NCBI GenBank assembly: GCA_034620365.1
Contig: JAQGEQ010000133.1
Location: 181,290-245,289 of the forward strand
From: Pegea sp. RAD2-039
Taxonomy: Eukaryota; Chordata; Thaliacea; Salpida; Salpidae
Reading direction: 5' to 3'
DNA length: 64,000 nt
Under the pieces are notes generated by a model. That model was not told the origin of the DNA and ran no database searches. It saw only the letters and a list, made by a program, of their open reading frames with translations. The position numbers were made by a program, and so were the translations under genes. Position 1 is the first letter of the stretch; every line of letters begins with the position of its first letter. Positions 1 to 64,000 of this stretch are shown here, piece after piece.

Positions 1-96
1 AAATTTGTTGATCTTCGAACAAAAAGTCAATTTTTGATTATTCCAATTAATTTTTATTAAAACTAAAATCCATAAAAAAACAGAACATCAAAAGTC

Positions 97-345
97 TTAC
101 AAATAAAATACTTTACTAACAATTAATTTCAATACTTTGTTTAAATCTTTTTCTGCTCTGTTATATAAACAAGTTTCTTCAAAATATTTTTGCTTTACTA
201 AAAGATTCAACATTTTAGAGGTTGTATCAAACAAGTAGTTTATTGAAGATTTTAAAGCTATTTCAAAATATTTAAACATACTAAAAAGTTACTACAAACA
301 ACTTGCTTCTTAAGACAAATGTAAATAAACTGTTTATAAATGTTT
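97..345 (-). repeat. Dispersed module T, copy 1
   Basis: The same sequence occurs at 21525-21775 (IR-1 partner) and at 37010-37235, and more decayed around 32130-32220. A 60-codon open frame on the minus strand lies inside it, but the copies do not keep that frame open, so I read it as non-coding. Confidence 0.75.
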
Positions 346-599
346 ATAAATAATTTGAAATTTCAGTTAAAAGTTTTTGGACTCCAAGTTAAATTTTAAG
401 CAGACACTGATTATTGTTAATGTAAACAACGTGAGTTTTTGATTATTTTTTACTTTGTCGCAGTCTAGAGTTCAGTTGGAATCAACTTCAGACGAATTCT
501 TTCTTAAATTTCTTAAAGATTTTCGAAAACTTTCCAAAATTAATTAATTTCTTTATTTTTTCATAAAATTAATACAAACAGATTCAAACGAACAATAAT

Positions 600-880
600 C
601 TAAAAGTTGTAACAATATTTATGCAAATCTAATAAAAGTATTAGATACGCAAAACTTAATCAATTTAGAAATTGAATAAAAACCTTTCTGAGACTTAAGT
701 ATTTATATTTATTTAAGACAAAGTTTAATTTTTCTTGCTTAGTCACCAAGCAAGACATTCATATATTTAATAGAAATAGAAAAACATTTAACTATTTAAA
801 AAAACTCTTTCATTATATAATAATTCTATTCCTTTTACTCACTACAAAATATATTTTAAAATTATTATATAAGTTTTTAC
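600..880 (+). repeat. Module inverted relative to 38100-38345
   Basis: The clearest shared stretches are the AGTCACCAAGCAAGAC string near 740 and the AATAATTCTATTCCTTTTA string near 820, both found reverse-complemented near 38265 and 38180. Confidence 0.65.
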
Positions 881-1057
881 AGTTGTTGCATCTTTCAACC
901 ATTTATAATTTCTATATTCAATGTAATCTTCAAAAAAACTACAAAAAGCTTTATATAATTAAATTAAAAAATTAAACAGAATTACTTTAGTTAACATCGT
1001 AATCATCTTTTGAATATCATTTTAAATAATAAAAGTATACTTAACTTTTGATGAAGC

Positions 1058-1161
1058 TACAAACTTAAGTTCCTATGCAGCTTATATATAACATTTACAT
1101 ATCCTTTTTCACCGAATCCAGTATTTATAAATGCAATATTTGGAAGATGCACTTTTGCATC
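1058..1161 (-). repeat. Palindrome-TATA-core cassette, type H1
   Basis: Palindrome GATGCA-CTTT-TGCATC is at 1146-1161. A TATATATA stretch is at about 1083-1090. The core is a variant, CTACAAAC on the plus strand at about 1057-1064. The gap between palindrome and core is about 82 nt. Confidence 0.65.
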
Positions 1162-3029
1162 TGTTTATCAACTAAGTATTTTTCATAAGTAAGAAATACA
1201 GTGATTGTATTTTCTTTAAAATAAAATTTAATTAAATCTCATCATCAGATAATATAAATTTAATTTCACCATTAAATATCATAAAGTTTGTTAAAGTTGT
1301 AAATTAATACTGAGGAATACAAAAGTTCCTAGTTCAGTGTAAACGATTAATCGTAATTAAATAATTCGTAATAAAGCAAAAATATAAACACAAATTTAAC
1401 AAATATAAATCGTATATATAATATTCGAGCAAATGTTTACTAAAATAAATTTTAACTCTTAAAGAATATATTTTTCAAAAGTTAAAACCAAATGTAATTT
1501 GATAATATAAATAGTGTATGCAGGTTAAATTAAATCTTTCAAAATAATTAAAAACCCATTAATTATAACTTTTTGCTTCTATCGTTTGCATTCTCTAGCA
1601 ATTAAAATATCTTGGCTAATAACAAATATCTAATACTTTAGTAGCCGCTGATGAAATTAATTTAATGGTTTGTATGATTTTTAGATTATTTTGATGATCA
1701 AATAAAAATACTCCGTGAGTCTTAAAAAAGTTTCATTTTTAAAAACAAAAAGTCACATGGTTTAGATTTAATTTTTGATCGTCAGTACGATTGATCATTT
1801 TAATTTTAATCATCGAAGTAGAATAAATCAAATTCTAAATTAAATAAAACTTGGTAAGAAAAATTGAACTAATTTTGTTTGTATTATAATAAACTTATAA
1901 GAACTTTTCGTATCAACTTTAAAATCAAACTTTCTATTTGAAAAATATTTGTCAACAAAATGCTTATCAAGAAAATTATAAAATTAGTTTCATTTGAACT
2001 TGATCCCATAAACTTCAGATTGCAACAACGTTTATAAGATATGAAAAGTAAAATAAAGCTCATTCTGTCGTAAAGGATTGCAAAGTTTTCAAGTTTTGAG
2101 CTACAGTACTTTACAACGAAACTTTAAATAATAAATAAGATTAATAACTTGAGTAATTATTCATCACAAAAAATGTTTGTAAACAAGTTATTGGTAATAT
2201 GACAGATTTTTTAGTAATTAAAAGCTTTTCATTCAGCAAAACTAATATTTTGCTTTATAATATCATTTAATCGAAATCATTAAATATCAGCTTGGCAATT
2301 CTGTTTTTAATCCAGTTGATAGTTTATTGCATTTGACAAATATCAAAAAGTTTACAAATTTTCTATCATGAGCTGAAATATCAAAGAATATTATTTTGTT
2401 TCTAAAATTTCATATTTTTGCCGTTGATATATCAAATTACAAAAAGTAAAAATAACTTTTATGAATGGAATTATGTAAATTACGAAACTTTTTTAAATTA
2501 ATAAAAAATAATTAAACTACTTAAAATTAATATCTAAAATTATTAGATAATATTTTTTGTAAGTTGAAAATACTGCCAAAAAAATATTAAGATTATAATA
2601 CAATTGTGTATTTTTCACATGTTTTATTTTTATAAGTAACCGTCTAGCGCACAAGTAGCGGAAAAGGAAATAGTTGAATTGTTTTTTGTAGATTTATCTT
2701 TTAGTCTTGATTTATTTACATTATCTAAAATAATAAAGTTTTTAAAATAGTCAGACTGACCAACGTACTCTTAATTTCCATTTTATCAAATACTATTTAT
2801 ACTATAAATATTTGTAAATATGCAGTGTTAATTAGAATCTAATATTATTTAACAATAAGTAAAAACAGGAAAATAAATTATTGAGAGATATAAAGGAACA
2901 AAATAAATGTTTTGACTGAAGCTCAGTTTAATGATAATTAGTATTAAATTAAACTAATAATATCAATAAAGAAACAATATCATCAATAACCTTATTGATT
3001 GATTAAAGCAATCAAAAAATTTACCGACA

Positions 3030-3147
3030 CCACAAACATAAGATTGAATGAAGATATTATATACCTGTATAGATTACGAGAAAAGATTGTTTTAGTATCA
3101 AATAATTGATATGTAGTATCTGAATTTGGACGATGCAATTTTGCATC
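3030..3147 (-). repeat. Palindrome-TATA-core cassette, type H1
   Basis: Palindrome GATGCA-ATTT-TGCATC is at 3132-3147, with both stem halves perfect and a loop different from the common CTTT/AAAG. TATATAAT lies at about 3054-3065 on the minus strand. The core GTTTGTGG (minus strand) is at 3030-3037. The gap is 94-95 nt. Confidence 0.7.
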
Positions 3148-3999
3148 TTGATGTCAAATAAATCTTTCCATGGAAAAAATAAGGTTTTGTGTTCTTTTGA
3201 GATTTCTTGAAATTTATAAGCTGCTTGTACAAGTGTAATTTGATTTTTCTTAATCTTTATTTTATTCATTTAACACAACACTTTTTTAAAAATGAGTTTT
3301 TTGTATAAAACTCATCAATACCACAAACCAAAGTTTTTTTTTCAATTCTTGAAGAAACATCAAGATTTTGCGTTTTCAGAAAAAAAATAAATTGTATTAA
3401 TATGAAGTGATCAACAGGTTTTAACAATTTGGATAATTTACTAAATTTACAATTATCACTTGAAGGCTTTACACATTAAAACTAACGATAACTAAGATAT
3501 TGTAATAATATTTATACAAATCATAATAAAAGTATAGAGTTATAAATGAGCTGTACCAACTCCTATGTTTGTAGTTTCATCAAAGATTACTCATACTTTA
3601 TTCAATTGATATTGTAATTAAAAATATAATTATTATAAAGATTATAATTTTTGCTTTAATTAAATATCTAACTATTCACATAATAATTATTTTGATTTCT
3701 TTATTTTAAAACAAAAAAGAATTTTTATCATTAATTTAAGAAGACCTAATTAAATTAACAAGATATTAATTAACAGTTATAAGATGAAATAGCTTTATTA
3801 CATCAAATTCTGAAGTAGTTAAAGTTTATCTTAAGAAAAAATAAATTTCTAACTTTTGTTTAATGATATACATTTTAACTAATAAACCATTTTTTAGGAT
3901 TAAAAGTAAAAGTGATTTAAAAATCATAGATAATGTATACAGTTTAAAACAAATTTAATTTCTGTTGTTTGATTCATTATAAAAATGCAAAAATTATAA

Positions 4000-5780: not shown

Positions 5781-5787
5781 TTTTTTC

Positions 5788-5899
5788 GTTGAAAAGTATT
5801 TCAACTCCAAAATGGTTCATTCAAGCTCTATGAATATTAGCGTAAAACTTTTATTTTAATATCCTTATTTACTTCTTTGTCGTAATCTACAGTTTGTGG
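5788..5899 (+). repeat. Palindrome-TATA-core cassette, type H2
   Basis: Palindrome GTTGAAA-AGTA-TTTCAAC is at 5788-5805 and the core GTTTGTGG at 5892-5899, with an 86-87 nt gap. The TATA-like stretch is weak (TTATTTA near 5866). The mirror copy at 18440-18550 has the same arrangement. Confidence 0.65.
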
Positions 5900-6889: not shown

Positions 6890-6965
6890 TGTTAAACTCG
6901 TTTAGATTTCTAGCACCACAAGCAACAGACTTAAACCATTTTTACATATTTCAATTTTATTCCCA
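6890..6965 (-). repeat. Module D with TTTGTGG-like core
   Basis: The anchor TTTAGATTTCTAGCACCACA recurs near 16600 (inverted), 30795, 59632 and 60010. The CACCACAA part is the reverse complement of the TTTGTGG core of the cassettes, but I see no H1, H2 or H3 palindrome beside it. Confidence 0.6.
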
Positions 6966-8689
6966 AAAAATCCTGCTATCGTATGATTCATAGTAAATAT
7001 AATTTATAAACTTTCAATAGCAGTTTACAAATTTGTAAAAAAAATTGATGATTGGTTGAACAACTGTTGTGTAATCGAATTGTTATTTCATATAGATAAT
7101 ATAGAAATAATATACAAGGATCTAACCAATTTTTAAAGCTAATCATTTAAAAATTTCTTTTATCTAATCATTTTGATTTAGGGTCCTTTTTTTATGAGTT
7201 ATAATTATGATTGAAATTGTATATGAAACTAATAACAATTACTCAACAAAAAAATACTGATATCAAGCTTACATTGTTTTCAATAAAAATCAATAACACA
7301 GATTTCTAACATAAGTTATATAGTCTTTTTTCGTATTTAAAAAATCTTAATTTGAGTACAGAGGCCTTATAACTGACATCCTTATGATTTGAGTAAGTTA
7401 TACAGCTGTTGAAACAAATTTTTAGAAAAAAACGTGTTCATAGTTATTTTAAAAATATTTTCATATTTTTAGATTTTTACAGTAAGTTTTTTTCAGTAGA
7501 TCACAAGCAATTTCTTTAGACCAAAAAAACTAGAAAAACTAAATCAAACTTTATTTATTTAAGAGTTTAATATCATTGAGGAATTTTGTAATTACCACTT
7601 ACAGCAACCTTCATTGGCTAAATAACATAAATTGTTTTGTTGATTACAATATTACTTTCACTTTATTTTGATTAATAATTACAGAAACAAAGTATATGGT
7701 ATTATTAACGTTTAAGTAGTAATTTATTATTTATAAATATTAAATTTGCTTCTTAACTCTCTATTTTAGCTAAAACTCTGATTAGAAATACTTATTTTAC
7801 TCAAAGAAAATTTTTGATTCGTAATTATCAAACACAATTATATTAATAGGTTTAAAACAATACAGATTTTGTATGTCAACTTTTATAAAGAATGAAAACT
7901 TGAGATATTCAACTTACTTAATAAATGAAGTTTTATTTATCTGTAATTTAACTCCAAATTTATAATCAGCTAAAAACCTAAATGCTGATTGAAATATTCT
8001 TTACTTTTCATTTCTTATCAGTTTGTTGCAATCTAGAGTTTTTGAATCAACTTTAGGAGAATATTGTTTATAATTTTATTGAACAAACTTTTGTTGAAAA
8101 ATAATTTTCATTTTTTCAAATTTTAAATAAATTGTGTATACAAAAATAACTCATCAAAAAGAAATAAAAATACAAAATTAGTTTTAAAATTTAATTTTTT
8201 TATCAATCTGAAATATAAAAAAAAACAATAATTTCACTAGCGAGAAAATCTGTTGCTTTACAAATACAAGAAAAAGTAAATAGCTAGTTTGTTATGGTAA
8301 TGAAGGTATTCTATTTATGCTATTATTGAACATAGCTAAAGTACTTATTTTCCCCTCTTCCATGTCAATTCAAAAAGTTTTTATCAGATTTATTGTTGAT
8401 TAAAAAATTTAATTTATTACAAAAAAATCAATATTAAAAATACTAATTATATTGACAAAGTAAAATAGTAGATAATTTGATAGTTTTTTAATACATAAAA
8501 ATGTATGTTAAAAAGTTTTAAGTTACTTTACAGTGAAAATAAAAAAATAATTTCCTATAAAAATTCATTTTTTTATTGATACGAAAAGTTACAAGTTAAA
8601 CTAGTTTTGTTTTCAATCTAAACTTTATTATTCATAAATTAAACAAAGTTTAAAAGTAAGCTTTAAAATTCAAGTTTTCAAATATCACT

Positions 8690-12484: not shown

Positions 12485-12900
12485 GTTCAGTGAACTTCTT
12501 TTAGTTATAAGATTAAAAAAATAAAACTTTTTGATTGTCTCTATAATTATTGGCTTTTTAGTTCTAAAACTGTTATTTGATTTTTAAACACTGCGGAGAT
12601 TTGTACGAGTTTTTGACAAAACTAATATAAGATTTAACACTTTTTAGTTTGGGATAATCATTATAAAAGCAATGCATAGAGAAAGAGTTTTTTATGTTTT
12701 TTTATACTACACAAAAATAATTTGAATCCTGATTTAGTGCTTTTCTCCTTACGGTGATAAATCAGTGTTTAACCCACAAATACTAGAATAAAAATACTTT
12801 TTATTAAGCAATTTTTAGCGCTAAATCTAATTGTCTTGCAAACCAATTTTTTTGAAAAATTTAATTTGAAGTCGACTAAGTGTCGATGTAACCTTTACTA
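12485..12900 (-). repeat. Module inverted relative to 41290-41730
   Basis: A long stretch around 12735-12830 (TTTCTCCTTACGGTGATAAA and flanks) is found reverse-complemented at 41390-41475. It contains the H3 cassette at 12774-12886. Confidence 0.75.
12774..12886 (-). repeat. Palindrome-TATA-core cassette, type H3
   Basis: Palindrome TCGAC-TAAGT-GTCGA is at 12872-12886. The core, ATTTGTGG on the minus strand, is at 12774-12781. The gap is about 90 nt. The TATA-like stretch is weak (AATAAAAAG). Confidence 0.6.
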
Positions 12901-13402: not shown

Positions 13403-13729
13403 TTTGTTTTGCTGATGCTGAGTAAGTTTATAACCTTTTGGGTATATTTTTCTACTTAAATTTGTTTACAATTGTTGTGCTTTTCACATCATCACCTAGT
13501 CTTTGAATTTAATTAGAGAGAAACGTCGCTACGTCAAATGAACTTCATCATAATCAAACTTGCTTCTAAACTAGTTTCCTGTTTTCTAAGTGCAAACATA
13601 AGAAGCAAATATTAAACCAAATTAATAGTAACATTGTATTTAAATAACTATATCAAGTTTTTCTACTTTTGTTCAAAATTGTTGAGTTTTGCGTTTGATT
13701 TTTTATGAAAAAACAATATTTGATAATTA

Positions 13730-13839
13730 GATGCAAAAGTGCACTTTTCAAAAAAAATTACGAAAAATTGGGCTCGGGAAAAAAAGTATCATTATTCTAA
13801 AGGGTTATATATTATCTGCGTACAATCTTATGTTTGTGG
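13730..13839 (+). repeat. Palindrome-TATA-core cassette, type H1
   Basis: A decayed palindrome (GATGCA-AAAG-TGCACT) is at 13730-13745. TATATATTA is near 13806-13814. The core GTTTGTGG is at 13832-13839. The gap is about 86 nt. It faces the H2 cassette at 14205-14315. Confidence 0.65.
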
Positions 13840-14204: not shown

Positions 14205-14315
14205 CCACAAACTCTAGATTGTAACCAAGTTGTTATAACCGAAATTTTCTTGGAATTCTTAGATCATTGTGCATATTGAATCTATGACATAATTTGAAGT
14301 TGAAACACTTTCAAC
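14205..14315 (-). repeat. Palindrome-TATA-core cassette, type H2
   Basis: Palindrome GTTGAAA-CAC-TTTCAAC is at 14299-14315, with a three-base loop. The core (minus strand) is at 14205-14212. TTATAAC lies about 22 nt upstream of the core. The gap is 86 nt. Confidence 0.7.
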
Positions 14316-14620: not shown

Positions 14621-16944
14621 TAGATGAGATCTTTTATTAAACAGTTAACCAAATAATTAAATGGTTGATTCATTTGTTATAATTTTTATATATATCTATA
14701 ATAGTTTTATGTCAAAACAATCTTTATTAAATCTTAAAATAGTTTTATTGTCCCGATGTTTAATGATTTCGATTGAATGATATTAAAAAGTAATAAAGAA
14801 ATAGAAATGTTGCTGCTTAAATTATTTCATCTGAAATATACGTAGAAATACTAATTTTGTAAAATAAAAGTTTTTATATTTGAAAACATTCTGTTATATT
14901 ATAATTCTGTTATTTATTGCAATTTTCGAGGATTGCTTTTAAGAGTAATTTAGTAACAAAAAGTTTTTTTTTGTGAGTTAAGTTCCATTTCTGGTCTTTT
15001 TAAAAAAGGAGATGTTTGTATGAAAACGCCTTTTCTAACTAAAGCATATACAACTTATTGAAAACAAGACAAACAGATTACTACAAGTAAAATAATTCAA
15101 TTTTTCAAACAAAAGGATAACTTTAAATTTTCTGAAAACTTGTAGAGAATTTCTGATTAACTTTATCAAATAAAAAGTTGATAAATATTGTTGACGTCGA
15201 AAAAGGTGTTCAACTATTGAGAAACATTAAGAACCTCTTTTGCAAAGAGAAACTTTTTGTTTTAAAAATTTTTTGTTTTTACTTAGATTTCAGACTAAAA
15301 AAACAATTAAATTTTAAAGCAAATTTTTTATTTTTTATTTCTTTTTTATTAGTTATTTTTGTATACATATTTTATTAAAAAAAATGAAACTTATTTGTCA
15401 ACAAAAGTTTTTTCAAAAAAATTATAAGAAAATATTCTCCTAAACTTGATTCAAAAACTGTAAATTGCAACAAACTGATAAGAAATGAAAAGTAAAGAAT
15501 ATTTCAATTAGTATTTAAGGTTTTTAGCTGATTATAGATTTAATGTTAAGTTTCCTATAAACAAAACTTCATTTATTAAGTAAATTGAATATCTTGAGTT
15601 TTCATTCTTTAAAAAAGTTGACATACAAAATCTGTATTGTTGTGAACCTATTAATATAATTGCATTTGATAATTACGAATAAAAACTTTTCTTTGAGTAA
15701 AATAAGTATTTCTAATCATAATTCTAGTTAAAGTAGAAAACTAAGCAGCAAATATAATATTTATAAATAATAAACTACTAATTACAAGTATATAATACTA
15801 TATAATTTGTTTCTGCAATTATTAATCGTAATAAAGTTGAAGCAATCTTTTAATCAACAAATAGAATTATGTTATTTAGCCAATGAAGGTTGCTGTAAAT
15901 GTTAATTACATATTTGCTCAATGATATTAAACTTTCAAATAAAAAAAGTTTGATTTAATTTTTACTACTTCTTTTGGTTTAGACTTATTGCTTGTGATCT
16001 ACTGAAAAAAAAAACTTACTGTAAAAATAAAAAAGTATGAAGATATTTTTAAAACAACTATGAACACGTTTTTTCTTAAAATTTGTTTCAACAGTTGTAT
16101 AACTTATTCAAATCATAATGATGTCACTTATGAGGCCTCTATACTCAACTTAAGATTTTGTGAATTCAAAAAAAGACAATTTAACTTATTTTAAAAATAT
16201 GAGTTTTTGTTTTTCATTAAAAACAAAGTAAGCTAGATATCTGTTTTTTATGTTGAGTAATTTTTCTTAGTTTCATATAAAATTTCAATAATAATTTTAA
16301 CTCCTAAAAGAATAAGTAAGGGCCCTAAAATAAAATGTTTAGATAAAAGAAATGTTTTAATAATTAGCTTAACAATTTGGTTATTAATAAGCTCCTTGTA
16401 TATAACTTTTTAATTATATTTTATAAATGAAATAACAATTCGATTAACAACAATTGTTCATCTAATCATCAATTTTCTTTTGAAATTTGTCAACTGCTAT
16501 TTGCAGTTTCTAAACAATAAGTATTTTAGCACGAGTCTTGATACAGGATTTTTTTAAAGAATAAAATCGAAATATGTAAACATGGTATAAGTCTGTCGTT
16601 TGTGGTGCTTGAAATCTAAACAAGTTTAACATTTTTTAAGAAAGTACAATGTAATCGGTGTACAAAATTATTGCATGTAATACCAAAACATGTTAACTTC
16701 TTTTACTTTTAATAAAGCAAATTCTTTTAATTTAATCTGAAATATCAGACAATGCCAATTGAAAAACTGTTACTAAATATATTCGTGTTACTTAAACAAA
16801 GAAAATTTTCTGCTAACATTAGAAATTATGTTTATTATGGAAACTAAACTATAAATTGAATCTGATGTTATTTGAAATAATTAGTTAATTTGAAATTTCA
16901 TCTTTAACGATTTAACTCTGTATAAAAAATAATTACAAAAAAAG

Positions 16945-18439: not shown

Positions 18440-18550
18440 CCACAAACTGTAGATTACGACAAAGAAATAAATAAGGAAATATTAAAAAAAATTTAGTGTT
18501 TGCATAGCTCCATCTGGATGAACTATTTTTGAGTTGAAATACTTTTCAAC
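18440..18550 (-). repeat. Palindrome-TATA-core cassette, type H2
   Basis: Palindrome GTTGAAA-TACT-TTTCAAC is at 18533-18550, core (minus strand) at 18440-18447, gap 85-86 nt. It is the IR-1 mirror of 5788-5899. Confidence 0.65.
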
Positions 18551-20929: not shown

Positions 20930-21500
20930 AAATCTGTCATATTACCAATAACATGTTTACCGACATATTTTGTGATGAATAATAACTCAAGTTATTAAAC
21001 TTATTTGCTACTTAAAGTTTCGTTGTAAAGTACTTTAGCTCAAAACTTGAAAACTTTGCAATCCTTTACGAAAGATTGAGTTTTATTTTACTTTTCACTT
21101 ATAATAAACGTTGTTGCAATCTGAAGTGTATGGGATCAAGTTCAAATGAAATTAATTTTATAATTTTCTTGATAAGCAATTGGTTGAAAAATATTGTTCA
21201 AATTGAAAATTTGATTTTAAAGGTGATAAGAAAATTTTTTTATAAGTTTACTATTATACAAATAAAATTAGTTTAATTTTTTTGATCAAATTTTATTTCA
21301 TTCAGATTTAAATTTATTCTACTTCGATGATTAAAATTAAAAATAATCAGTCGTACTGACGATCAAAAATTAAATCAAAAGCCATGTGACTTTTTGTTTT
21401 TAAAAATAAGACTTTTATAAGACTCACAGATTATTTTCGTTTGATCTTCAAATTAACTTAAAAGTCATACAAACCTTTAAAGTAATTTAATCAGCTGCTA
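20930..21500 (+). repeat. Composite repeat E, internal fragment
   Basis: This corresponds to 34000-34590 of the fuller copy and is the IR-1 partner of about 1640-2210. The end portions present in the left arm are missing here. Confidence 0.7.
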
Positions 21501-21775: not shown

Positions 21776-22480
21776 ACTTTTCATGTTCTGTTCTCTTAAG
21801 GATTCTAGTTTTAATAAAAAATAATTGGAATAATCAAAAATCGACTTTTTGTCCGAAGATCGACAAATTTGGATACTGAAAAGCCTGATTTAGCCGTTTT
21901 TAATTTGTATTTTATCAAATTATCTAACTACGATTTTCTCTGTATTTATCTGCAAATAAACTGCAGATGAAACAAGAGAAGAAACAGTTTTCAGTAATCC
22001 TGAACTAAAATTAATTTATTAAGTTACTATAGTATTTCTATATTATATTATTATACCTTAATTATTTTTATTTCACTAATTTCAAAGTTATTAAAACGTT
22101 TATTTAAATCATTACAAAAAAGTTTATCAACAACAAATTAATTCTAAAATTGTAAAAACAAATTCGTTTAAGCTTGACCCCACAAACTTAGGATTACGAC
22201 AAAGTGATAAATAAGGATATAAAAAAAACTTTAAACTAAAAATAAATGAATTTTTAAAACCTAATTGTTGAAATATTGTTCAACGAAAATTCTCTTACTA
22301 AAGAAGTTGAAGAACTTCAGTTTCTATTATGTAGAAAAAACGACAAAAAAATAATTTCATTTATTTTTGTAAAGATATATCTGATAATCTGACAAGACGT
22401 TCAAAAAGTTAACTTTCAGTTAATCAAAGAAAATTATTTATGGCATCACTAATATCTGCTTCATATTGAGTTTTATTTGA
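21600..22480. repeat. IR-2 left arm
   Basis: 21870-22060 is the reverse complement of about 31790-31990, and 22140-22480 is the reverse complement of 30260-30650. The pair sums differ by about 1.1 kb, so the right arm carries an extra segment (about 30650-31780). Confidence 0.7.
22180..22284 (-). repeat. Palindrome-TATA-core cassette, type H2
   Basis: Six-base stem GTTGAA...TTCAAC is at 22267-22284 (loop ATATTG), core (minus strand) at 22180-22187, gap about 80 nt. Its IR-2 partner is the cassette at 30478-30588. Confidence 0.6.
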
Positions 22481-24149
22481 AATTTCATTTCTTATTATTA
22501 AAAAAATTAACTTTAAATCTTAGAATTATTTCTAATTTGTAAGTACTTTAAATAAAAACTTATATTAATGAATAATATATTATAATAAAAATCTAAAAGT
22601 AACACTAAAAGAAATAACTTCAGTAATTTTAATTTTTATGATTGAACAAATCAGTTGTTTTGCTAATTTTACTTTATATTTTCCATCTGTTTATCAAAAA
22701 GGTATTTTTCAAAATAAGAATAAATAAGATTTTGCTTTTCTTGAGATTGTTTGATGATTTACAATTCTACTTTTTAATATTAATTTTCATTTTTTTTTAT
22801 TTACTTTTTTTTTTATTCAATAAAAATTTTTTACTCCAAAAATATTAGTTTAAATTAGAAAAAAAAAATCATAATTGTTCGTAATTCAATGTTTCAATTA
22901 TATTTGTATCACTAAAACTCTAACTTGTAGAATCTTCCTAATTTTAATTAAATATTAAAATTAATAATAAATAATAATAATAATAAATAATTATGGAAAA
23001 AGCTAAATTATAACAACGCTAATATACCAAACAGCGGTCTATTCATATTTCTAAGTAGATTTTTTTAAATCCATTTTATTTTTGATAGATTTGTATAAAT
23101 ATTTAATAATAGTTAATAAATATTAAATATATCAAGTTTTAGATCAAGTTGTAATGTCGTAAAAAAGAATAGTATCTGAATGATAGGCCCAAAGTTCCAA
23201 AACAAGAAATTTTTCTTTATAAATATATATAAGCTTCCCAATCGGTTAGTATTCACAATTTAAAAATAAAATATTCAAATGGTTTTTGACTTAATTTCTA
23301 AAAGTCTTCATTTATCAGCGCCACAAATTTTTTTTGAATAATCAAATCAAATATTAATTTACAAAGATTCAATTCAAACTTGAAAAAAATGAGATTACTT
23401 ACAAACAAATATTTTTATCTAAAAGTACAAAAAATATCTCGTTTAAACTTGACCCCACAAACTCTAGATTAAAACAAAATTATAAATGCTGACAAATTTG
23501 GCAAAATCTTATATTTTAATGTTCTCATGGTAGCTATTTTTGGAGTTGAAAACTTTTTCAATGAAATTTTATTTAAAAGTAAATTTATTTACGAGTAAAT
23601 TTAGTTTTTATTTTGTAAAAAACTGAAGTAAAAACAATTGATGTCAGAATTTTGTTTTCTTGTTTCTAAACATGTTACTAATAATGTGACAAAAATTTTA
23701 CAAATAGAAAACTTTCCTTTCAGCAAAAAGAGTATTTGCAATTAAACTTCAACTGAAAATGAATTTAACGTAAAAAAATCGTTATTTTTATTTATTTTTG
23801 ATATCACTAAAATCAAATAAGTTAAACATCATTTCAAAAAACCTACTTTCAATGCTGTAAATACTTTAATGCAGTAGATAATTATTTGGAAACTTTTCAA
23901 TTTCTAACCCATTTAATTTTTTAGTCTCCCAAGTAATATTAATTAACCAAAACATTAAACATAAACTAAATTATTACAAATTTTACAAATCTTTTAGTAA
24001 ATCATTTAAGGACTAATAGTTGGTTTGATATTTGGTATTGTAGTAAATGTATAATTTTCATAATTATAAGTTATAAACTAGATATTCTTTATTCACATTC
24101 TAATTACGATTAATAAATATGTCAATATCCTTGCAAAAAAAACAGAACT
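22481..24149. other. AT-rich region with scattered repeat traces
   Basis: I recognise only a (TAA)n microsatellite at 22970-22993 and a decayed H2-type cassette (core CCACAAAC on the plus strand at 23455-23462, imperfect palindrome near 23543). The open frame at 22642-22848 is hydrophobic, begins at a non-ATG codon and is not credible. Confidence 0.5.
22970..22993. repeat. (TAA)n microsatellite
   Basis: This is an imperfect run of TAA units. Confidence 0.85.
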
Positions 24150-27080: not shown

Positions 27081-27193
27081 CCACAAACTTAAGGTCTTAG
27101 GCAGTTTATATATAACATTTACAAATCCTTTTTCACTGAAATACCAAATCCAGTATTTATAAATGCAATATTTGGAAGATGCACTTTTGCATC
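27081..27193 (-). repeat. Palindrome-TATA-core cassette, type H1
   Basis: Palindrome GATGCA-CTTT-TGCATC is at 27178-27193, TATATATA at about 27105-27112, and the core (minus strand) at 27081-27088. The gap is 89-90 nt. Confidence 0.7.
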
Positions 27194-28439
27194 TGTTTAT
27201 CAACTAAGTATTTTTCATAAGTAAGAACCACAGAGATTGTATTTTCTTTAAAATAAAAATTTAGTTAAATCTCATCATCAAATAATCTACATTTATTTTC
27301 ACCATTAAATATCTTGAAGTTTGTTAAAATAGCAAATTAACTCTGAGGAATACAAAAGTTCCTAGTTCAGTGTAAACGATTAATCGTAATTAAATAAATC
27401 GTAATAAAGCAACTATAAACACCAATTTAACAATTATAAATTGTATATATAATAATCGAGCAAATATTTACTAAAATAAATTGTAACTGTTAATGAATAT
27501 AGTTTTCAAAAGTTAAAACCAAATGTAATTTTGATAATATGAATAGCGAAAACAAGTTAAATTAAATTTTTAAAATAGTTAAAAACCCATTAATTATAAC
27601 TTTTTGCTTTTATCGTTTGCATTATCTAGCAAATAGAATATTTTGGGTAATAACAATTATCTAATATTTTAATAGTCTCTGAAATTATTTTGAAAATTAA
27701 ACGAAGTTAATTAAAAATCTTATTATTAAAAAAAGTCGTATAGTGCTCCCATTTTAAAAACAAAAAGTCACATAGTTTTTGATTTAATTTCTTATCGTCA
27801 GTACGATTGATCATTTTTAATTTTAGTCATCGAAGTAGAAATAGATTTAAATCTAAATTAAATAAAACTTGATAAGAAAAATTAAACTAATTTGGTTTGT
27901 AAAATAGTAAACTTATAATAAATTTTCTTATCAACTTGAAAATCAAATTTTCTATTATAACAATGTTAGTCAACAAAATGCTTATCAATAAAATTAAAAA
28001 AATAATTTCATTTGAACTTGATCCCATACACTTCAGATTGCAACAACGTATATAAGAAATGAAAAGTAAAATAAAATAAAGCTCAATCTTTCGTAAGGGA
28101 TTGCAAATTTTTAAATTTGGAGTTAAAGTACTTTACAACAAAACTTTAAATGATAAATAAGTTTAATAACTTGAGTTATTATTCATCACAAAATATGTTT
28201 GTAAACATGTTATTGGTAATATCACAGATTTTTTACTGATTGAAAAATTTTCATTCAACAAATCACAAACATAGATTTTATTATCATTTAATCGAAATCA
28301 TGAAATATCACCTCGGCAATTCTGATTATTTTCTATCATTAGATGAAATATCAGAAATTACTGTTTTGCTTCTACAGTTTTAAAAGTTCTAATTTCATAT
28401 AGTTTAGAATAAATTTAGTTTTTATTGTTTGATTCTTTA

Positions 28440-32374: not shown

Positions 32375-32498
32375 GTTGAAAAGTATTTCAACTCCAAAAT
32401 TGTATCAAGTATCTACCTATTATTGAAATTATATGAGGTCTGGTCATGTAAAGGTAATTTTCATTTCATATAACTTCATTACAACCTAGAGTTTGTGG
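32375..32498 (+). repeat. Palindrome-TATA-core cassette, type H2
   Basis: Palindrome GTTGAAA-AGTA-TTTCAAC is at 32375-32392, ATATAAC at about 32469, and the core GTTTGTGG at 32491-32498. The gap is 98-99 nt, the longest of the set. Confidence 0.65.
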
Positions 32499-33220: not shown

Positions 33221-33340
33221 GATGCAAATGTGCATCTTCCAAAATAAATCAATAAAAAGACTCTTATTTCATCAGTCAATCCGGCTTTCCCTGCAACCTT
33301 TACGGTTATATATTATCTTCATTCAATCATATGTTTGTGG
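33221..33340 (+). repeat. Palindrome-TATA-core cassette, type H1
   Basis: Palindrome GATGCA-AATG-TGCATC is at 33221-33236, TATATATTA near 33307-33315, and the core GTTTGTGG at 33333-33340. The gap is 96-97 nt. About 20 nt past the core lies another dyad, CGATTG-n7-CAATCG. Confidence 0.7.
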
Positions 33341-35065: not shown

Positions 35066-35179
35066 GATGCAAAAGTACATCTTCCAAATAATGCATTTAT
35101 AAATACTGGATTTGGTATTTCAGTAAAAAATGATTTTTTAAATGTTATATATAAGCCACATAATAACTTATGTTTGTGG
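35066..35179 (+). repeat. Palindrome-TATA-core cassette, type H1
   Basis: The palindrome GATGCA-AAAG-TACATC (one stem mismatch) is at 35066-35081, TATATA at about 35146-35152, and the core GTTTGTGG at 35172-35179. The gap is about 90 nt. Confidence 0.65.
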
Positions 35180-39183: not shown

Positions 39184-39300
39184 ACACAAACGTAAGATTG
39201 AATATAGTTAATATATAACCGTAAAGATTTCGATAAAACAAGATCCGTACGATCTGGTACGCAGTAATGCTAATAATTTTAGAAGATGCACCTTTGCATC
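39184..39300 (-). repeat. Palindrome-TATA-core cassette, type H1
   Basis: Palindrome GATGCA-CCTT-TGCATC is at 39285-39300, ATATATAACC at 39211-39220, and the core variant GTTTGTGT (minus strand) at 39184-39191. The gap is 93-94 nt. Confidence 0.65.
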
Positions 39301-39850
39301 TAATTAAAAAAGGCTTATATTATGGTAAAAATATAAAGTTTTATCGATTTGGCGAGATCGCTTGATGTTTACAAATTTCTTCTACAAATTCAAAATTAAA
39401 TTTTCTTTTAAATGTTGATTAACGTTTTCAGTAATTTAATAAAAAAATTTGGAGCATATAGCAGTTTTTCATAATTATTAATGATTTTTAAGAAACGATA
39501 GAAACTCATTACTTTTTCTTTAATTTAATGTTACACCCTTTTTTGAAAAAGAAAAGTACATGATAATAGTTAATATTTTTTATCATCTATTAGTTTATTT
39601 AGTTTAAACATTTAACGTTGAAGTTGGATTGACTATAAAGGTAATATTTTACCTCAATGATTCAATATCTTCTAATCTTGATTTTAATAAGTAACTCCAT
39701 GAAAAAGTTTTAATCTTTTTCAAAACTACAAAAAGCAAGGTAATTATTTTACTGATAATTGTTTTTAAATTGAGTCAATATTATCTTAATAACAATAATA
39801 TTTTCAATACCATTATCAATTGATTAAAGCACCCGTAAAACTTAAGGATA

Positions 39851-39948
39851 GCACAAACTTAAGATTGTATGCAGATTAATTATAACCCTTTAAATATTCC
39901 GTAGCCCAATTTTTCCTAATATAAATTAGCAGGATGCACTTTTGCATC
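39851..39948 (-). repeat. Palindrome-TATA-core cassette, type H1
   Basis: Palindrome GATGCA-CTTT-TGCATC is at 39933-39948, a weak AATTATAACC lies near 39876, and the core variant GTTTGTGC (minus strand) is at 39851-39858. The gap is 74-75 nt. Confidence 0.6.
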
Positions 39949-39959
39949 TAACAATCAAT

Positions 39960-41289: not shown

Positions 41290-41730
41290 CATATTTGTAA
41301 AGGTTATATCGACAAGTAGTCGACTTCAAATTATGTTCTTTAGAATATTATGATTATAAGAAAATTAGAATTACTGTTGAAAAAATTGCTTAATAAAAAG
41401 TATTTTTGTTCTAGTGTTTGTGGGTTAAACACTGATTTATCACCGTAAGGAGAAAAGCACTGAACCAGGATTTAAACTTACTTTGTTTAGGTTAAAAAAA
41501 CATAAAAAACTATTTCTCTATGTATTGTATTTCTAAAGATTATCCTAATCTAAAAAGTTTCAAATTTTATATTAGTTTTGTCAAAAACTCGTAGAAATCT
41601 CCACAGTGTTTAAAAATCAAACAACACTTATAGAACTTATAAGCTGGTAAATATAAAAATAATCAAAAAGTTAGTTTTTGTAATCTTATAACTCAATAAA
41701 ATTCACTGAACTATTGATCTAATTAAAATA
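41290..41730 (+). repeat. Module inverted relative to 12485-12900
   Basis: This is the reverse complement of 12485-12900 and contains the H3 cassette at 41309-41423. Confidence 0.75.
41309..41423 (+). repeat. Palindrome-TATA-core cassette, type H3
   Basis: Palindrome TCGAC-AAGTA-GTCGA is at 41309-41323 and the core GTTTGTGG at 41416-41423, with a gap of about 92 nt. The loop differs from the partner at 12872-12886 while the stem is unchanged. Confidence 0.6.
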
Positions 41731-45400: not shown

Positions 45401-45723
45401 AATCTATTGAACAATATTGTACAACTTTTACTACAATAACAAATATCTAAAAACTGAAATAACATTATTGTAAATTACATAAATGATTTGTATAGTTTGT
45501 AGAATAGTTTATATTTACTGTTAGTATTAATTGTTTAATTTGGTGAAATAAGTATCTCTGAAAATATCAAGACTTTTCGATAAACTGAAAGTTGAATCTT
45601 GATATAGTTAGTAATATAAATTCCTTAAACTTGCTGTTTTAACTTCAACTGAATAGTTTTTCAAATTAAACATTTTCCGAAACTGAATGGGTTGACTATG
45701 AAGCAAAACTTATTTTATAACTA

Positions 45724-45838
45724 GATGCAAAAGTGCATCTTCCAAATAAATCATTAGGAGAATGAATGCAGGTATGAAAAACGTTTTATTGAAATCTATA
45801 CTGTTATATAACTTGTTCAAACAATCTTATGTTTGTGG
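45724..45838 (+). repeat. Palindrome-TATA-core cassette, type H1
   Basis: Palindrome GATGCA-AAAG-TGCATC is at 45724-45739, TTATATAAC at about 45804-45812, and the core GTTTGTGG at 45831-45838. The gap is 91-92 nt. Confidence 0.7.
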
Positions 45839-46734: not shown

Positions 46735-47381
46735 GTTGTAGACAAGAAGAAAGACGTCGTCAACAAGAAGAAAATAGACTTTGTAAGCAGGAACAGCAAG
46801 AAAGACTTCAACGAGAAAGAGAAGAACAGGATAGAATAAAGCGTCTAGCTAAATATCAGCGAATGCAACAAGCGTCAGCAAATTACCACCTAAGAGCAAT
46901 GATGCTTTGTCAACAAGAACAAGAAAATCGTCGATTACAAGAAGAAAAACGCCTTCAACAAGAAGAAAAACGTCGCCAACAGGAAGAAAATCGTTGTAAA
47001 CAAGAAGAAAGACGTCGTCAACAAGAAGAAAATAGACTTCGTAAGCAGGAACAGCAAGAAAGACTTCAACGAGAAAGAGAAGAACAGGAGAGTATAAAGC
47101 GTCTGACTGAATCTCATCTTATGCAACAAACGGCAGCATACAAACTAAAAACAGAAATGATACTTCGTCATCAAGAACAAAAATATCGTCGATTACAAGA
47201 AGAAAAACGTCGTCAACAAGAAGAAAAGCGTATTCAGTGTGATCAAGAAAAAATACGTCAACAGGAAGAAGAAAGCCAGGTAGTTCGTCAGCATAACGAC
47301 CAACAGATCTGCAATTGTTTGAAAATTCACCGAAAGATGAAGGGTTCCAAAAATTTCATTTCTGTGCTAACTCTTATCTAA
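46735..47381 (+). CDS. E/Q/R-rich coiled-coil fragment, 5'-truncated
   Basis: An open frame of about 215 codons encodes a highly charged protein, nearly all E, Q, R and K, with QQEE, RRQQEE and RLQRERE heptad-like runs typical of a long single alpha-helix or coiled coil. Two tandem units of 258 bp (86 residues) lie at about 46734-46991 and 46992-47249. There is no ATG start: an in-frame stop lies at 46719-46721, inside the adjoining zinc-finger copy, so the true 5' part has been lost. A CAG/GTAGTT splice-donor-like site follows at about 47277-47281, and the reading beyond it (to the stop at 47379-47381) loses the coiled-coil character, so the real exon may end there. Best reading: a relic exon of a larger repeat-containing coiled-coil gene. 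Function is unknown. Confidence 0.5.
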
Positions 47382-47383
47382 AG

Positions 47384-47720
47384 TAATTTGGAATACTAAG
47401 CTTATATATAGAGCAATCCTAATCTTTTGTTTGTGGTGCTCAACAAAAACTAATTTTTCTAGAGATAGTGGAAAATATTTTATACTTTTTTTAGCTGTAA
47501 TGAAAGGTTAATATTCTTGAATGAAAAAAGGTTTATTAGAGTAATGAGACAAAAGATTTAAGTTTAAAAAAATTGATTACATTAGTTAGACTTGGTATAA
47601 AATTGCTTATCTTAGTTTATTAACAGCTTTTAGATGTTTATATTTATAAATTTTAATTTTAGATCTTAAAATTATCTATTTGAATATTATTTAAAAATCT
47701 TTTACTTTTTAGTGATTAAA
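47384..47720. repeat. Dispersed module shared with 49075-49450
   Basis: Both contain AATACTAAGC, a TATA-rich stretch and a TTTGTGG-like core (GTTTGTGG at 47429-47436; TTTTTTGTCC in the second). TATATATA lies about 22 nt before the core in this copy. No H1, H2 or H3 palindrome is recognised upstream; the coiled-coil exon occupies that position. Confidence 0.6.
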
Positions 47721-48893: not shown

Positions 48894-49074
48894 TGATTCA
48901 ATTTTCTAAGACTCAAAAAAGAAATGACTTAACTAAACCTTACAATCATAATTAGTGCTAGTACTATAGAAATTAATTCTTTTAATTCAAAGTTTCTTTG
49001 ATCGTTCTAACTCAGTCCTGAAAAAGCTGAAAAATTACTATATTTTAAATTACACCGTTACATGAACGGTTCCA

Positions 49075-49450
49075 AATAATCGATTGAATTTATTGTTAGT
49101 GTCTTTAGTGGTAACATTTCTTAAATACTAAGCCTATTTATAAAGTAGTCTTAATCTATAGTTTTTTGTCCTCAAAAAATAATGTTTCAGCGATAAGATA
49201 AAAATATTTAAAAGTAGCTTGGGTGAATTAAAATGTTGTTATTATTGAATGAAAAAATCTATTTTACAGTAAATAGCAAAAGGATTTGATTTTCAAAATT
49301 TGATTATATTTATTACACTTGTTATCTAATCTTTTAATATTAGTTTATAAATAGTTTGAAAAGGTCAATTTTAGATTTAGTATTTAGGTTTGTAAAGATT
49401 AAAATTAGTTACTTAGTTGATTATTTTACAATCTTTAATTTTTAAATTAT
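49075..49450. repeat. Dispersed module, second copy
   Basis: This is a diverged direct copy of 47384-47720. Confidence 0.55.
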
Positions 49451-59624: not shown

Positions 59625-60075
59625 TAATTTGTTTAGATTTCTAGCACCACAAACAACAGACTTTAACTATTTTTATATATTCCGATTTTTCCCTTCCAGA
59701 AACGTTTATTTAGTATAGACGGACAATCAATTTAATTTTGAAACCGCTAAGTAGTGGTTGATTAATTTATAAACGAATTAATAATTTGTTGAATACTTGT
59801 ATTTAAGTGCATTTTTATTTAGAATATTTAATTTAAAAGAATAATATAGAAAAAGCTAAATAACTACCAAATTTTAACCTAATTTTTGTAAACTCTGTAG
59901 TGATCTAAACAAATAATTTTTTTGCTTTTACTTATTTTATAATTAACTAATTATTATTTAATAATTTTGTAGACCGATTTCATTGTACTTTCTTACAAAA
60001 TGTTAAACTCGTTTAGATTTCTAGCACCATAAACAACAGACTTTAAACATTTTTAAATATTCCGATTTTAATTTT
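59625..60075 (-). repeat. Two tandem module D copies
   Basis: The TTTAGATTTCTAGCACCA anchor occurs at about 59632 and again at about 60012, both in the same orientation as 6900, with about 60 bp of matching sequence after each. Confidence 0.7.
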
Positions 60076-60254: not shown

Positions 60255-60660
60255 TATCTAAAGGAAATTACAAAGAAAACTACTAATAGAAAACAGATTT
60301 TAACGATTTTAAGCAATTTATATAAAACGTTCAATCTTGATATTCTTATGAAAAATAATCTTCGTTTGTGGTAACGATAGATATTGTGTAGAAAAACTGT
60401 TGTTCTTAAAAAAATGTTGACTAAAACGAATAAATCAATGATTAAAAAGTAAAAGAAAATGTAACTAAAAAACATTTGATAATTAGATGCAAAAGTGCAT
60501 CTTCCAAAATAAAACAATAATACCTTTCTATTTATACCGTAACATTTCGGTTATATATTATCTTCAATCAATCTTACGTTTGTGTATCGGTAAATTTTTG
60601 ATGGCTTCATTCAATCAACAATGTTATTGAAAATATCATTTTTAACTGAACTTCTATCTT
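60255..60660 (+). repeat. Composite E fragment
   Basis: This matches 32985-33400 in direct orientation. It is followed at 60790-60870 by a diverged copy of the segment with the CTCF-like motif. Confidence 0.75.
60486..60585 (+). repeat. Palindrome-TATA-core cassette, type H1
   Basis: Palindrome GATGCA-AAAG-TGCATC is at 60486-60501, TATATATTA at about 60552, and the core variant GTTTGTGT at 60578-60585. The gap is about 76 nt. Confidence 0.65.
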
Positions 60661-61639: not shown

Positions 61640-62050
61640 TTTCGTTAAAAGTAATTCAAATCCAAACAAATAATAACAGGTTGTTTACACTACAATAATT
61701 ACTACAATTTATTATAAATTGGTTACAATTTAGAGTTAGTGGGATCAATTTTAAACTAATAAATTTTGGTAAATTTTATATTGTTACAATTTTATACTAA
61801 TTTTGTTTGTACCAATAATAAAGTTACAATAAAAATTGTTTTTCAGCTTTAAGTTAAAATTTCTGTGTAAACATTATTTGTCAACAAATAGTTTTTTATT
61901 AAAATTAGAAAAAATATCGTATTTTAGCTTGATCCCACAAACTCTAGATTGAAACAACGTTTATAACTAATGAAAAGTATATCTTTCAAACATTTCTTCG
62001 TGAAAGAAAATTGTTCCCATAATTTTGAGTTGAAATACTTTTCAACGAAA
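61640..62050. repeat. Small fold-back element of two facing H2 cassettes
   Basis: A left half (imperfect palindrome near 61645, core GTTAGTGG at 61735-61742) mirrors a right half (core at 61935-61942, palindrome at 62029-62046), with pair sums near 123675. The cores face the centre. It is the cleanest stand-alone example of a symmetrical element built from these cassettes. Confidence 0.65.
61935..62046 (-). repeat. Palindrome-TATA-core cassette, type H2
   Basis: Palindrome GTTGAAA-TACT-TTTCAAC is at 62029-62046, TTATAAA lies about 20 nt before the core, and the core (minus strand) is at 61935-61942. The gap is about 86 nt. Confidence 0.7.
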
Positions 62051-62959
62051 CTTCATTCAGTGAATTAGTAGAAAATTTTAAGTTCTTATTTTCTGAAAAA
62101 TTGACAAGACACTTGATTAGTTTAAAGTTATTTCCTTTTAATATCGTTTAATCAAAATCATTATATTTCTTTAACAAGCTTCATTTATCAAAAAGTTTAA
62201 TATCTTCAGTATTCATTCTTTACAATAAGATTTGACTTATAAGATGGTATCGTGAGATAACACATATATTGATATAAAAACATCTTCTAATCAAAATGTT
62301 AAGGAAATTAAAAGTCAATAAGGAACTAATTTTATATTTTTGACTTAATTAGAAGAATATTTTGATTATTTTTAACCGACACGCAGATTTTAGATCTATT
62401 TATTATTATAGAGAGATTTAAGAGTTGTTGAAATTATGACTCGCATTTTCAATTTTTCATTTTTGATTCAAAAAAAAGATTTATGATGAAATAGTCTTTA
62501 AAACTTCAAATTAAGATTATAGTTGTTTCTTACTGATCATGAAGAATTTAAAACATATTGTTTGTATAAAAATTGTTTAGATAGCATAAAATACTCAATG
62601 AAGAAACTAAGGAATTTAATATATGATGAATCTTAAAATATTTAAAAGAAATTAAAAAGAAAATTACTAACAGCAAACAGAATTTAGAAACCTTCGAGCA
62701 ATTTAGAGAAAACGCTCAATCCTGATATTCTTATGAAAAACAAAACTACTTTGTTACATCGATAGATTTTGGGCATAACAAAAAAACAGTTGTTTGTAAA
62801 AAAATTTTGACATAAGAACTATGTAAGAAAAATACATAAGAAATAAAGATTAAAAGAAAATTTAAGTTATACTTTTTTACAAGGAATTTGTAAACATCAA
62901 ACAATCTCAAAAAACGCTAAATCCTATTTTTACCTTGGAAAAAACTTACTTGATAACCA

Positions 62960-63077
62960 GTTGCAAAAGTGCATCTTCCAAATTAGTGTTTTAAAGTCAA
63001 ATTACGAGATAAAACGATTTCATTTCTCCGTTAGCTTTATGGTTATTTATTATTTTCATTCAATCTTATGTTTGTGG
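62960..63077 (+). repeat. Palindrome-TATA-core cassette, type H1
   Basis: The palindrome is GTTGCA-AAAG-TGCATC (one stem mismatch) at 62960-62975. The TATA-like stretch is weak (TTATTTATTATT). The core GTTTGTGG is at 63070-63077. The gap is 94-95 nt. Confidence 0.6.
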
Positions 63078-63365
63078 TGTCGGTAAATTTTTCGATGGCT
63101 TTAATCAATCGATAAAGTTATTGTTGATATTATTTTTATAAAGATACTATTAGTTCAAATTAAATTTAAATATCATTAAACTTAGCTTCTATCAAAAACA
63201 GTTATTTTATTTCTAGGTTTAACTCAATAATTAAGTATTTTATAAATTCAAAATTAATAGTACATTGGTTACTGTGACTATTTAAAATCTTTATTGTTTT
63301 AGATAATGTAAACAAATCAGGAAAAAAAGATAAACCTACAAAAAACAAGTCGACTGTTTCCTTTT

Positions 63366-63379
63366 CCGTTACTTGGCGC
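63366..63379 (+). promoter_or_regulatory. CTCF-like motif, ACTT variant
   Basis: CCGTTACTTGGCGC lies at the position in copy 3 of composite E that corresponds to 33627-33640. Confidence 0.3.
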
Positions 63380-64000
63380 TAGACGATTTGTTTTTAAAAA
63401 AATCACTTACAAAAATACATCATTTAATATATTTATAATATTTTTTGGGTATTACTTTAATTGTAAAGGAAATATTATATAACATATTTAGACATTTTTG
63501 TTTTTTTAGGAATCTGGAAAAGGTTAGTAAGTTATATAGTTTCCATTCATAAAAGTTAATTTTACCTTCTGTAAATTAATATATAAACGGCAAAAAATTA
63601 CAATTTTTAAAACTTTAGAAACAAAATAAAATTATTTGATATTTCATCTCATGATAAAAAATTTGTAAACTTTTTGATATTTGTCAAATGCAATAAACTA
63701 TGGACAAAAGAGGAATTGCCGAGCTGATATAAATGATTTCGAATAAATAATAACAAAAAGCAAAATACTAGTTTTTTTGAATGAAAAGTTTTCAATTAGT
63801 AAAAAATCTGTCATAATACCAACAACATGTTTACAAACATATTTTGTGATGAATAATAACTCAAGTTATTAAACTTATTTATTATTTATAGTTTCATTGT
63901 AAAGTACTTTAAGTCCAAATTTGAAAACTTTGCAATCCTTTACGAAAGATTGAGTTTATTCTACTTTTTATTTCTTATAAACGTTGTTGCAATCTGAAGT

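Follow-up and report, generated by a model that had tools for sequence, protein, structure and literature searches.

Candidate snRNA-promoter-driven mini-RNA genes with a variable 5' segment in the genome of the salp Pegea

Short cassettes that pair the motif GTTTGTGG with a palindrome recur through a 64,000-nucleotide stretch of the genome of the salp Pegea sp. RAD2-039 (assembly GCA_034620365.1, contig JAQGEQ010000133.1, positions 181,290 to 245,289; hereafter the window), and they most likely represent a large class of mini-RNAs with a variable 5' segment, driven by small nuclear RNA (snRNA) promoters. Each cassette is, in our judgement, quite probably a tiny snRNA-type gene for an RNA of 43-68 nucleotides (nt), probably of the Sm class, in which the variable 5' segment is followed by a 3' hairpin. 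At the level of sequence, the cassettes have their promoter in common with U1-U6, hold the TATA box in a defined register, place an Sm-like site against the hairpin in most families, fit a dozen or so hairpins into one layout, and concentrate variability between the predicted start and the Sm-like site. Sm-class RNAs are normally few and conserved, and a search of the literature (mostly open-licence papers) found no such RNA class.

The window forms the terminal part of contig C267 (245,289 bases) in a genome of 105.7 Mb and 387 contigs, and its GC content is 21-23% except between 44 and 56 kb. A COX1 search gave no match; the U6 RNA looks animal-like. GTTTGTGG occurs in it 32 times against 0.88 expected from dinucleotide shuffles, eight of these occurrences (46489-46664 and 54874-55301) lying within zinc-finger-like 84-bp repeats unrelated to the cassettes. 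A sequence-only reading of the window had described cassettes with a palindrome at a fixed distance upstream of GTTTGTGG. On that side, a stem of at least 6 bp lies at 65-130 nt in 16 of the 24 non-zinc-finger occurrences, compared with 29% of random segments (n = 2000); strong stems (score of at least 10) accompany 12 of the 24 and 6% of the random segments. The fixed spacing was borne out, at 73-98 nt with a median of 86 (27 scan rows). The cassette list (Table 1) comprises 29 scan rows, minus 6487 (spurious) and 13856 (13839 again), plus 14205 and 59647. The loose cassette scan also gave 3-6 matches on each of five Markov sequences, so that its loosest rows are not significant one by one.

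The proposed direction did not hold. Reverse-complemented, GTTTGTGG reads CCACAAAC, which is the core of the proximal sequence element (PSE) of snRNA promoters in the same genome, where the consensus CCACAAACnnnARAYTT or a close variant stands upstream of U1, U2, U3, U4, U5 and U6. Because snRNA genes share this element, the supposed core is the PSE; on its side of the cassette a unit encoded on the other strand would have its promoter, and transcription would run towards the palindrome. Genome-wide there was little excess in the direction first proposed (GTTTGTGG then TATA, 76 versus 42 reversed). The search for PSE plus TATA with a U2-type gap returned 882 matches, some of them the same site counted twice through the variable gap, versus one in the reversed control. 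The PSE lies 57-63 nt from the RNA start in U6 (10 distinct promoters), 56-57 nt in U2 (n = 13), 55-56 nt in U5 (n = 7) and 54-57 nt in the U1 (n = 4), U3 (n = 4), U4 (n = 1) and U5 (n = 1) loci fetched individually. A TATA-like match starts at +29 of the PSE in 11 of 13 U2 and all seven U5 promoters, and at 33 or 34, never at 29, in all ten U6 promoters. Cassette TATA boxes start at 27-31 in 16 of 19 cases (exactly 29 in 11), two cassettes also matching at 34 within long TA runs. If this register is a guide, its U2/U5 position points to RNA polymerase II, and the T runs seen on inspection of cassette bodies argue against RNA polymerase III.

The sequence-only reading had put the spacing down to a functional constraint and guessed at a promoter, a protein-DNA complex or a transposase end. 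The constraint and the promoter survive; on the sequence evidence, the palindrome would be the 3' hairpin of an RNA and not a DNA-binding site or transposon end paired with GTTTGTGG. Ends of transposons or of miniature inverted-repeat transposable elements, or a protein-DNA complex, would fit interspersed multi-copy elements with palindromes, but the complement of GTTTGTGG is the U1-U6 promoter element of this very genome and similarity between copies runs hundreds of bases past the cassette, so we give this explanation almost no credence. Two further observations concern these promoters and genes. Some H2 cassettes are followed, 210-290 nt downstream, by a second PSE-like CCACAAAC (33106-, 60371-, 3321+) with no recognisable Sm-like site and hairpin. 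The palindrome CACTCCCCATTGGGGAGTG follows U2 genes (L024-L039), and since the diverged U2 copy L032 (CACCTCCCATTGGGGGGTG) retains its pairing, this palindrome may be a U2 3'-end signal.

If the RNA starts at the U2 offset (57 nt), the gaps of 73-98 nt yield predicted RNAs of about 43-68 nt (50-68 nt in 17 of 19 cassettes, those in which the automatic picker took the intended hairpin, not L091 or L079), made up of a 16-41-nt 5' segment, an Sm-like site and a hairpin. The motif before the hairpin is ATTTGGA, ATTTTGGA, ATTTTTGGA or a variant, with the general form ATTT(TT)GGA. It directly precedes the best stem at 28 of 49 PSE sites (15 of 24 in the window and 13 of 25 fetched from elsewhere), compared with 78 of 3000 random AT-rich segments (2.6%) and 53 of 3000 main-contig segments (1.8%), a control that is independent of hairpin choice. 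The 25 fetched sites are 40 minus 10 Rfam RNAs, one U1-like RNA, one site without a PSE and three identical copies; among the 21 sites of the 49 that do not combine motif and stem are fragments, RNAs of other kinds and some genuine cassettes whose site is altered or displaced.

The one layout accommodates about a dozen hairpins, with stems GTTGAA/TTCAAC (H1), AGATGCA/TGCATCT (H2), AACTGC/GCAGTT and AACCGC/GTGGTT (H3), GTCGAC/GTCGAT (H4), ACCGTT/AACGGT (C36), ACCGTC/GGCGGT (C72), ACTTGC/GCAAGT (C12), GACTGAA/TTCAGTC (L094), GTCGTC/GGCGAC (L099) and AACTGAC/GTCAGTT (L103). That unrelated palindromes share a slot had been recognised in the sequence-only reading. The window holds 11 H1 (three with decayed CCACAAAC), 11 H2 and three H3 cassettes, a decayed H3 copy at 60027, and two families absent from the list of that reading, H4 (12774+, 41423-) and H6 (47436-, 49168-). 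The exception singled out there, at 38750, is an H1 hairpin for which no PSE can be recognised at the normal spacing. In H3, comparison of two copies shows C-G in place of a T-A pair. Covariation computed from stem arms dealt among families was circular, the stems having been picked for pairing, and was not used. Covariance models, run on the window only, gave 14 further matches at E<1e-4 for H1 (trained on eight H1 cassettes), mostly decayed copies, and for H2 its 11 cassettes plus four weak matches at E<0.002.

At its cut-offs Rfam matched neither the window cassettes nor the fetched mini-RNA type; U7 had no match at gathering in the window and none at E<=3 in 12 fetched cassettes. The cassettes might instead be genes for spliced-leader RNAs or for SmY-like helpers of trans-splicing, whose promoter, Sm-like site and 3' hairpin they match, and the SmY model (RF01844) has one weak match overlapping the predicted RNA L083 (20.8 bits against a cut-off of 39, E 0.2). 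The conserved first stem-loop is missing, however; GT is absent from six of 13 bodies inspected by eye and no GT donor stands at a fixed place, and the bdelloid-rotifer leader exon was not found, while nematode SL1 gave two 3-mismatch matches. Brachionus plicatilis is reported to show no leader (PMC1925144). We therefore think these genes very improbable candidates.

Transcription, the polymerase, Sm binding and nuclear location of the predicted mini-RNAs are what we infer from these features. A SNAPc-like factor would recognise the PSE together with the TATA box near the U2/U5 position, and RNA polymerase II would initiate some 56 nt downstream of the first PSE base. The 43-68-nt product, consisting of the variable 5' segment, the Sm site and the 3' hairpin, would join an Sm ring to form a particle like that of U7. 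Its 5' segment would be free to vary and, if U7 and engineered U7-Sm-OPT RNAs are a guide, would base-pair with other RNAs.

Genome-wide, the H2 hairpin was found 229 times with up to three mismatches (control 0) and the H1 hairpin 230 times (control 21). Among the matches listed (the best 100 or so places for each, fewest mismatches first), those of H2 are all on C64, C98, C104, C109, C136, C261, C267, C273, C274, C275, C286 and C287, and those of H1 are on the same 12 contigs with one exception (C38); other hairpin families occur on ordinary contigs. Thirty loci from eight of the 12 array contigs have a GC content of 0.21-0.27, and 29 of the 30 (four inside the window) have a PSE-like match 78-106 nt upstream of the motif. 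Forty PSE sites on other contigs comprised 19 with the Sm-like site and hairpin layout (by inspection; nine from the C72 array), 10 Rfam U1/U3/U4/U5 genes, one U1-like RNA, nine other or unclear and one fetched on the wrong side; hand-chosen from the PSE+TATA matches listed, with nine from one array, they are not a random sample. At C12:503954-511877, PSE+TATA matches lie about 1.3 kb apart, and the three fetched were mini-RNA cassettes. Cassette copies sit in larger segmental duplications, often inverted. Inverted repeat arms in the window, 75-94% complementary, join 3.4-8 kb to 15.5-21 kb and 26-30 kb to 33-36 kb; one series is mirrored around about 12 kb, and the arms are inverted segmental duplications.

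Alignments between sub-families hold over the promoter, the Sm-like site and the hairpin but fail in the middle. In the window, body identity between sub-families is at the level of shuffled sequence (H1 0.54 versus 0.55, H2 0.54 versus 0.51), whereas identity is 0.76 for the promoter and 0.83-0.85 for the Sm-like site plus hairpin. End-to-end alignment through recent common descent, the opposing account named in the sequence-only reading, was thus found within sub-families only. In the C72/C94 array (15 pairs, six distinct copies) identity is 92% in the promoter, 89% in the Sm-like site plus hairpin and 90% downstream, against 58% in the body (shuffled 53%; range 0.47-0.88), which is nearly unalignable between copies and starts to diverge no more than about 10 bases from the predicted start. 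Among duplicate pairs, divergence of the H2 Sm-like site plus hairpin is 0.020 versus 0.077 in the flanks (lower in 12 of 13 independent pairs), and the H1 body reaches 0.131 versus 0.081 in the flank (faster in seven of 11 pairs). In just two of 24 independent pairs is the body more diverged than every flank window, 18440/5899 (12 of 32 body positions differ; flank 0.137) and 61935/L049 (nine of 33; flank 0.103).

That the variable 5' segment is a guide is conjecture by analogy. Strong differences between families, and in C72/C94 between otherwise near-identical copies, are what a natural set of guide RNAs would be expected to show. Three bodies were searched for complements genome-wide, 32 nt of the cassette at 27081 and 22 nt each of the fetched cassettes L091 and L109. 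The L091 22-mer matched its own four copies and C43:673088 (three mismatches), and the L109 22-mer six places on C72/C94 (five fetched, all cassettes) and C43:87242 (three mismatches); reversed-control searches gave no match. Both outside matches are antisense to apparent coding exons, the first a protein-kinase open reading frame (Pfam Pkinase, 1.6e-48), presumably Chk2-like from an FHA domain of our own reading, not given by Pfam, and the second a short open stretch with splice-like ends that adjoins a B56 exon (1.5e-13) of a PP2A-B56-like gene and itself lacks a Pfam match. The L091 and L109 pairings comprise 21 and 22 base pairs at -37.0 and -37.3 kcal/mol, against -22.9 and -28.7 kcal/mol for the best of 15,974 background windows, and in both predicted duplexes pairing starts from the second nucleotide of the guide sequence used. 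Chance 3-mismatch matches expected for L091 and L109 number 0.21 and 0.45 under a main-contig Markov model and 0.47 and 2.9 under a coding-composition model. At the actual pairing quality, by criteria set after the matches were known, 0.02 and 0.06 are expected in any window, or 0.12 and 0.46 with looser criteria. An unreliable energy-tail extrapolation gives 49.7 and 0.36 genome-wide, for L091 less favourable than the Markov model. When 35 guides were screened for duplexes with U1-U6, U3, the two target genes and a zinc-finger stretch, the next best after the two sites were L113, an L109 variant against the same gene (-32.7), and then 18440 against U1 (-28.0), which is unexplained. The two near-complements are suggestive of a guide function. 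Tentatively, we raise the possibility of a natural antisense system in which hundreds of U7-like Sm particles would carry hypervariable 5' guides that pair with mRNAs or other RNAs and are diversified by guide replacement, with the promoter on one side and the Sm/hairpin module on the other staying fixed. If true, therapeutic U7-Sm-OPT RNAs would have a natural equivalent, and it would follow that guide-RNA arsenals can rest on small nuclear ribonucleoprotein rather than Argonaute chemistry; the predicted guides and targets form a directly testable set.

Several observations weigh against interpreting the cassettes as Sm-class RNA genes with a variable 5' segment. Exact CCACAAAC is missing from five of the 10 distinct U6 promoters (TAACAAAC or CTACAAAC instead), one of 13 U2 promoters (CCGCAAAC) and all seven U5 promoters (CCACAAAT), and three of 19 cassettes are without any TATA-pattern match. 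Many H1 and H2 copies have just three U in the Sm-like site, which is altered in several; in minimum-energy folds it is unpaired in two of six RNAs and partly or wholly paired in four, and folding energy is unusual in only one of the six (z -3.4). RNAalifold revealed no double-sided compensatory change in either of the H1 and H2 families. The H1 Sm-like site plus hairpin diverges at 0.097 versus 0.081 in the flanks (lower in five of 11 pairs, many with a decayed PSE), and the H2 body at 0.087 versus 0.077 (faster in six of 13 pairs). Since the H2 body evolves on average at about the flank rate, acceleration is not general; the idea of a general acceleration of the variable segment was abandoned, being unsupported as an H2 average and mixed across the 24 independent pairs. 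The body of the 27081 sub-family is mostly frozen, its 32-nt stretch having 34 genomic matches, 22 of them identical, with 0-2 body differences in four pairs and 3/25 and 6/31 in two others. Of the 34, 27 are at the expected offset from an H2 hairpin among those listed, and the other seven are on the same contigs. Genome-wide, this 32-nt segment has no near-complement outside the array contigs.

Alternatively, one or a few old Sm-class RNA genes might have been spread by segmental duplication, most copies being dead or redundant and their 5' segments merely drifting. Copies do lie in inverted and direct duplications, several PSEs have decayed, and the mean rate of the H2 body equals that of its flank. 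This pseudogene bloom nevertheless seems unlikely to us, as the Sm-like site and hairpin are kept in H2 and as the body in C72/C94, 18440/5899 and 61935/L049 has diverged far beyond the DNA around it, which drift alone does not produce.

Among known systems, U7 snRNA, a conserved RNA of about 60 nt with a histone-pairing motif, likewise combines an Sm site and a 3' hairpin with a pairing segment at the 5' end, and ATTTTTGGA(G) of several cassettes is close to the Sm-OPT sequence. The cassettes differ in having about a dozen hairpin families, hundreds of candidate genes and differing 5' segments; the literature search (mostly open-licence papers) found no natural counterpart of U7-Sm-OPT antisense RNAs. 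SmY RNAs resemble the cassettes as a multi-gene family with an Sm site beside a 3' stem-loop. According to PMC11229312, their first stem-loop is conserved and C. elegans has twelve of the genes; the cassettes have a variable 5' part and an Rfam match below cut-off. Dictyostelium Class I RNAs, according to PMC7919456, are 42-65 nt long, come from many genes and have an snRNA-type element about 60 nt upstream and a variable middle, in all of which the cassettes are alike. Class I RNAs have a 5'-3' end-joining stem and an 11-nt motif, whereas the cassettes have a 3' hairpin and an Sm-like site, and no end-joining stem was seen in six folded RNAs. The Herpesvirus saimiri HSURs are Sm-class RNAs that pair with other RNAs (PMC6763288, PMC13158664). 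They differ in being viral and few and in recruiting host microRNAs.

Clusters of Piwi-type small RNAs offer a further alternative, in which the PSE would drive short precursors, RNAs of 21-30 nt would be cut from their 5' ends as in nematode 21U-RNAs, and the hairpin would only terminate transcription. The 21U-RNA genes are clustered and of arbitrary RNA sequence, and they are not known to have an Sm site or a conserved 3' hairpin. Such an arrangement would fit AT-rich clusters in which hundreds of PSE-driven units differ in their 5' sequence, and also pairing that starts at guide nucleotide 2. According to PMC7884074, the promoter factor and core motif of the C. elegans genes are related to the snRNA PSE. 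The Sm-like site and 3' hairpin conserved in the cassettes are not known from that gene model, one body is kept as a unit over 22 identical copies, and the genome yields no more of SL1 than the two matches noted above. We hold this alternative to be decidedly improbable, and favour the snRNA-type mini-RNA genes, whose coordinates in the window are given in Table 1.

Table 1. Cassettes in the window, from PSE to hairpin, with the parts of one exemplar H2 cassette given first
Feature	Position	Strand	Remark
Exemplar H2 cassette, PSE (CCACAAAC...)	27081..27096	+	Element as upstream of U1-U6
Exemplar, TATA box	27109..27115	+	+29 of PSE, U2/U5 position
Exemplar, predicted 5' segment	27137..27167	+	Start from U2 offset, 57 nt
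Exemplar, Sm-like site ATATTTGGA	27168..27176	+	
Exemplar, H2 hairpin AGATGCA-CTTT-TGCATCT	27177..27194	+	3' end of predicted RNA
H2 cassette	1057..1162	+	2 PSE mismatches
H2 cassette	3030..3148	+	
H2 cassette	13729..13839	-	
H2 cassette	33220..33340	-	
H2 cassette	35065..35179	-	5' segment same as 27081
H2 cassette	39184..39301	+	
H2 cassette	39851..39949	+	Sm-like site and PSE altered
H2 cassette	45723..45838	-	
H2 cassette	60485..60585	-	
H2 cassette	62959..63077	-	
H1 cassette	5788..5899	-	
H1 cassette	14205..14315	+	
H1 cassette	18440..18550	+	
H1 cassette	22180..22284	+	Sm-like site lost
H1 cassette	23455..23562	+	
H1 cassette	30478..30588	-	
H1 cassette	32375..32498	-	
H1 cassette	61935..62046	+	
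H1 cassette, decayed PSE (CCATACAC)	21022..21133	-	
H1 cassette, decayed PSE	28024..28139	+	
H1 cassette, decayed PSE	34107..34218	-	
H3 cassette	6916..7025	+	Stem partly decayed
H3 cassette	16492..16605	-	
H3 cassette	59647..59759	+	Stem AACCGC/GTGGTT vs AACTGC/GCAGTT in 16605
H4 cassette	12774..12887	+	
H4 cassette	41308..41423	-	
H6 cassette	47329..47436	-	Sm-like site AAATTTTTGGA, imperfect hairpin
H6 cassette	49054..49168	-	Hairpin ACCGTT-CATGT-AACGGT as in two C36 copies; 2 PSE mismatches

Other features were encountered alongside the cassettes. H2 hairpins occur in pairs 62 bases apart at C136:5042/5104, C136:31163/31225 and C109:27957/28019. At L094 (C6:2112854-2113174), a long inverted repeat resembling a microRNA precursor lies downstream of the mini-RNA hairpin, around GTAATTGACAACCC...GGGTTGTCAATTAC. 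Within the window, C2H2 zinc-finger repeats stand at 46477-46734 and 54701-55700 in this AT-rich array contig, the second block identified by Pfam (zf-C2H2) and the first by its 84-bp repeat alone. A satellite of about 125 copies of the 20-bp unit GGTACAAACAGGGTTTAGGA, with strong GC skew, occupies 50370-52872, and a tRNA-Gly (gcc) gene lies at 48730-48800.

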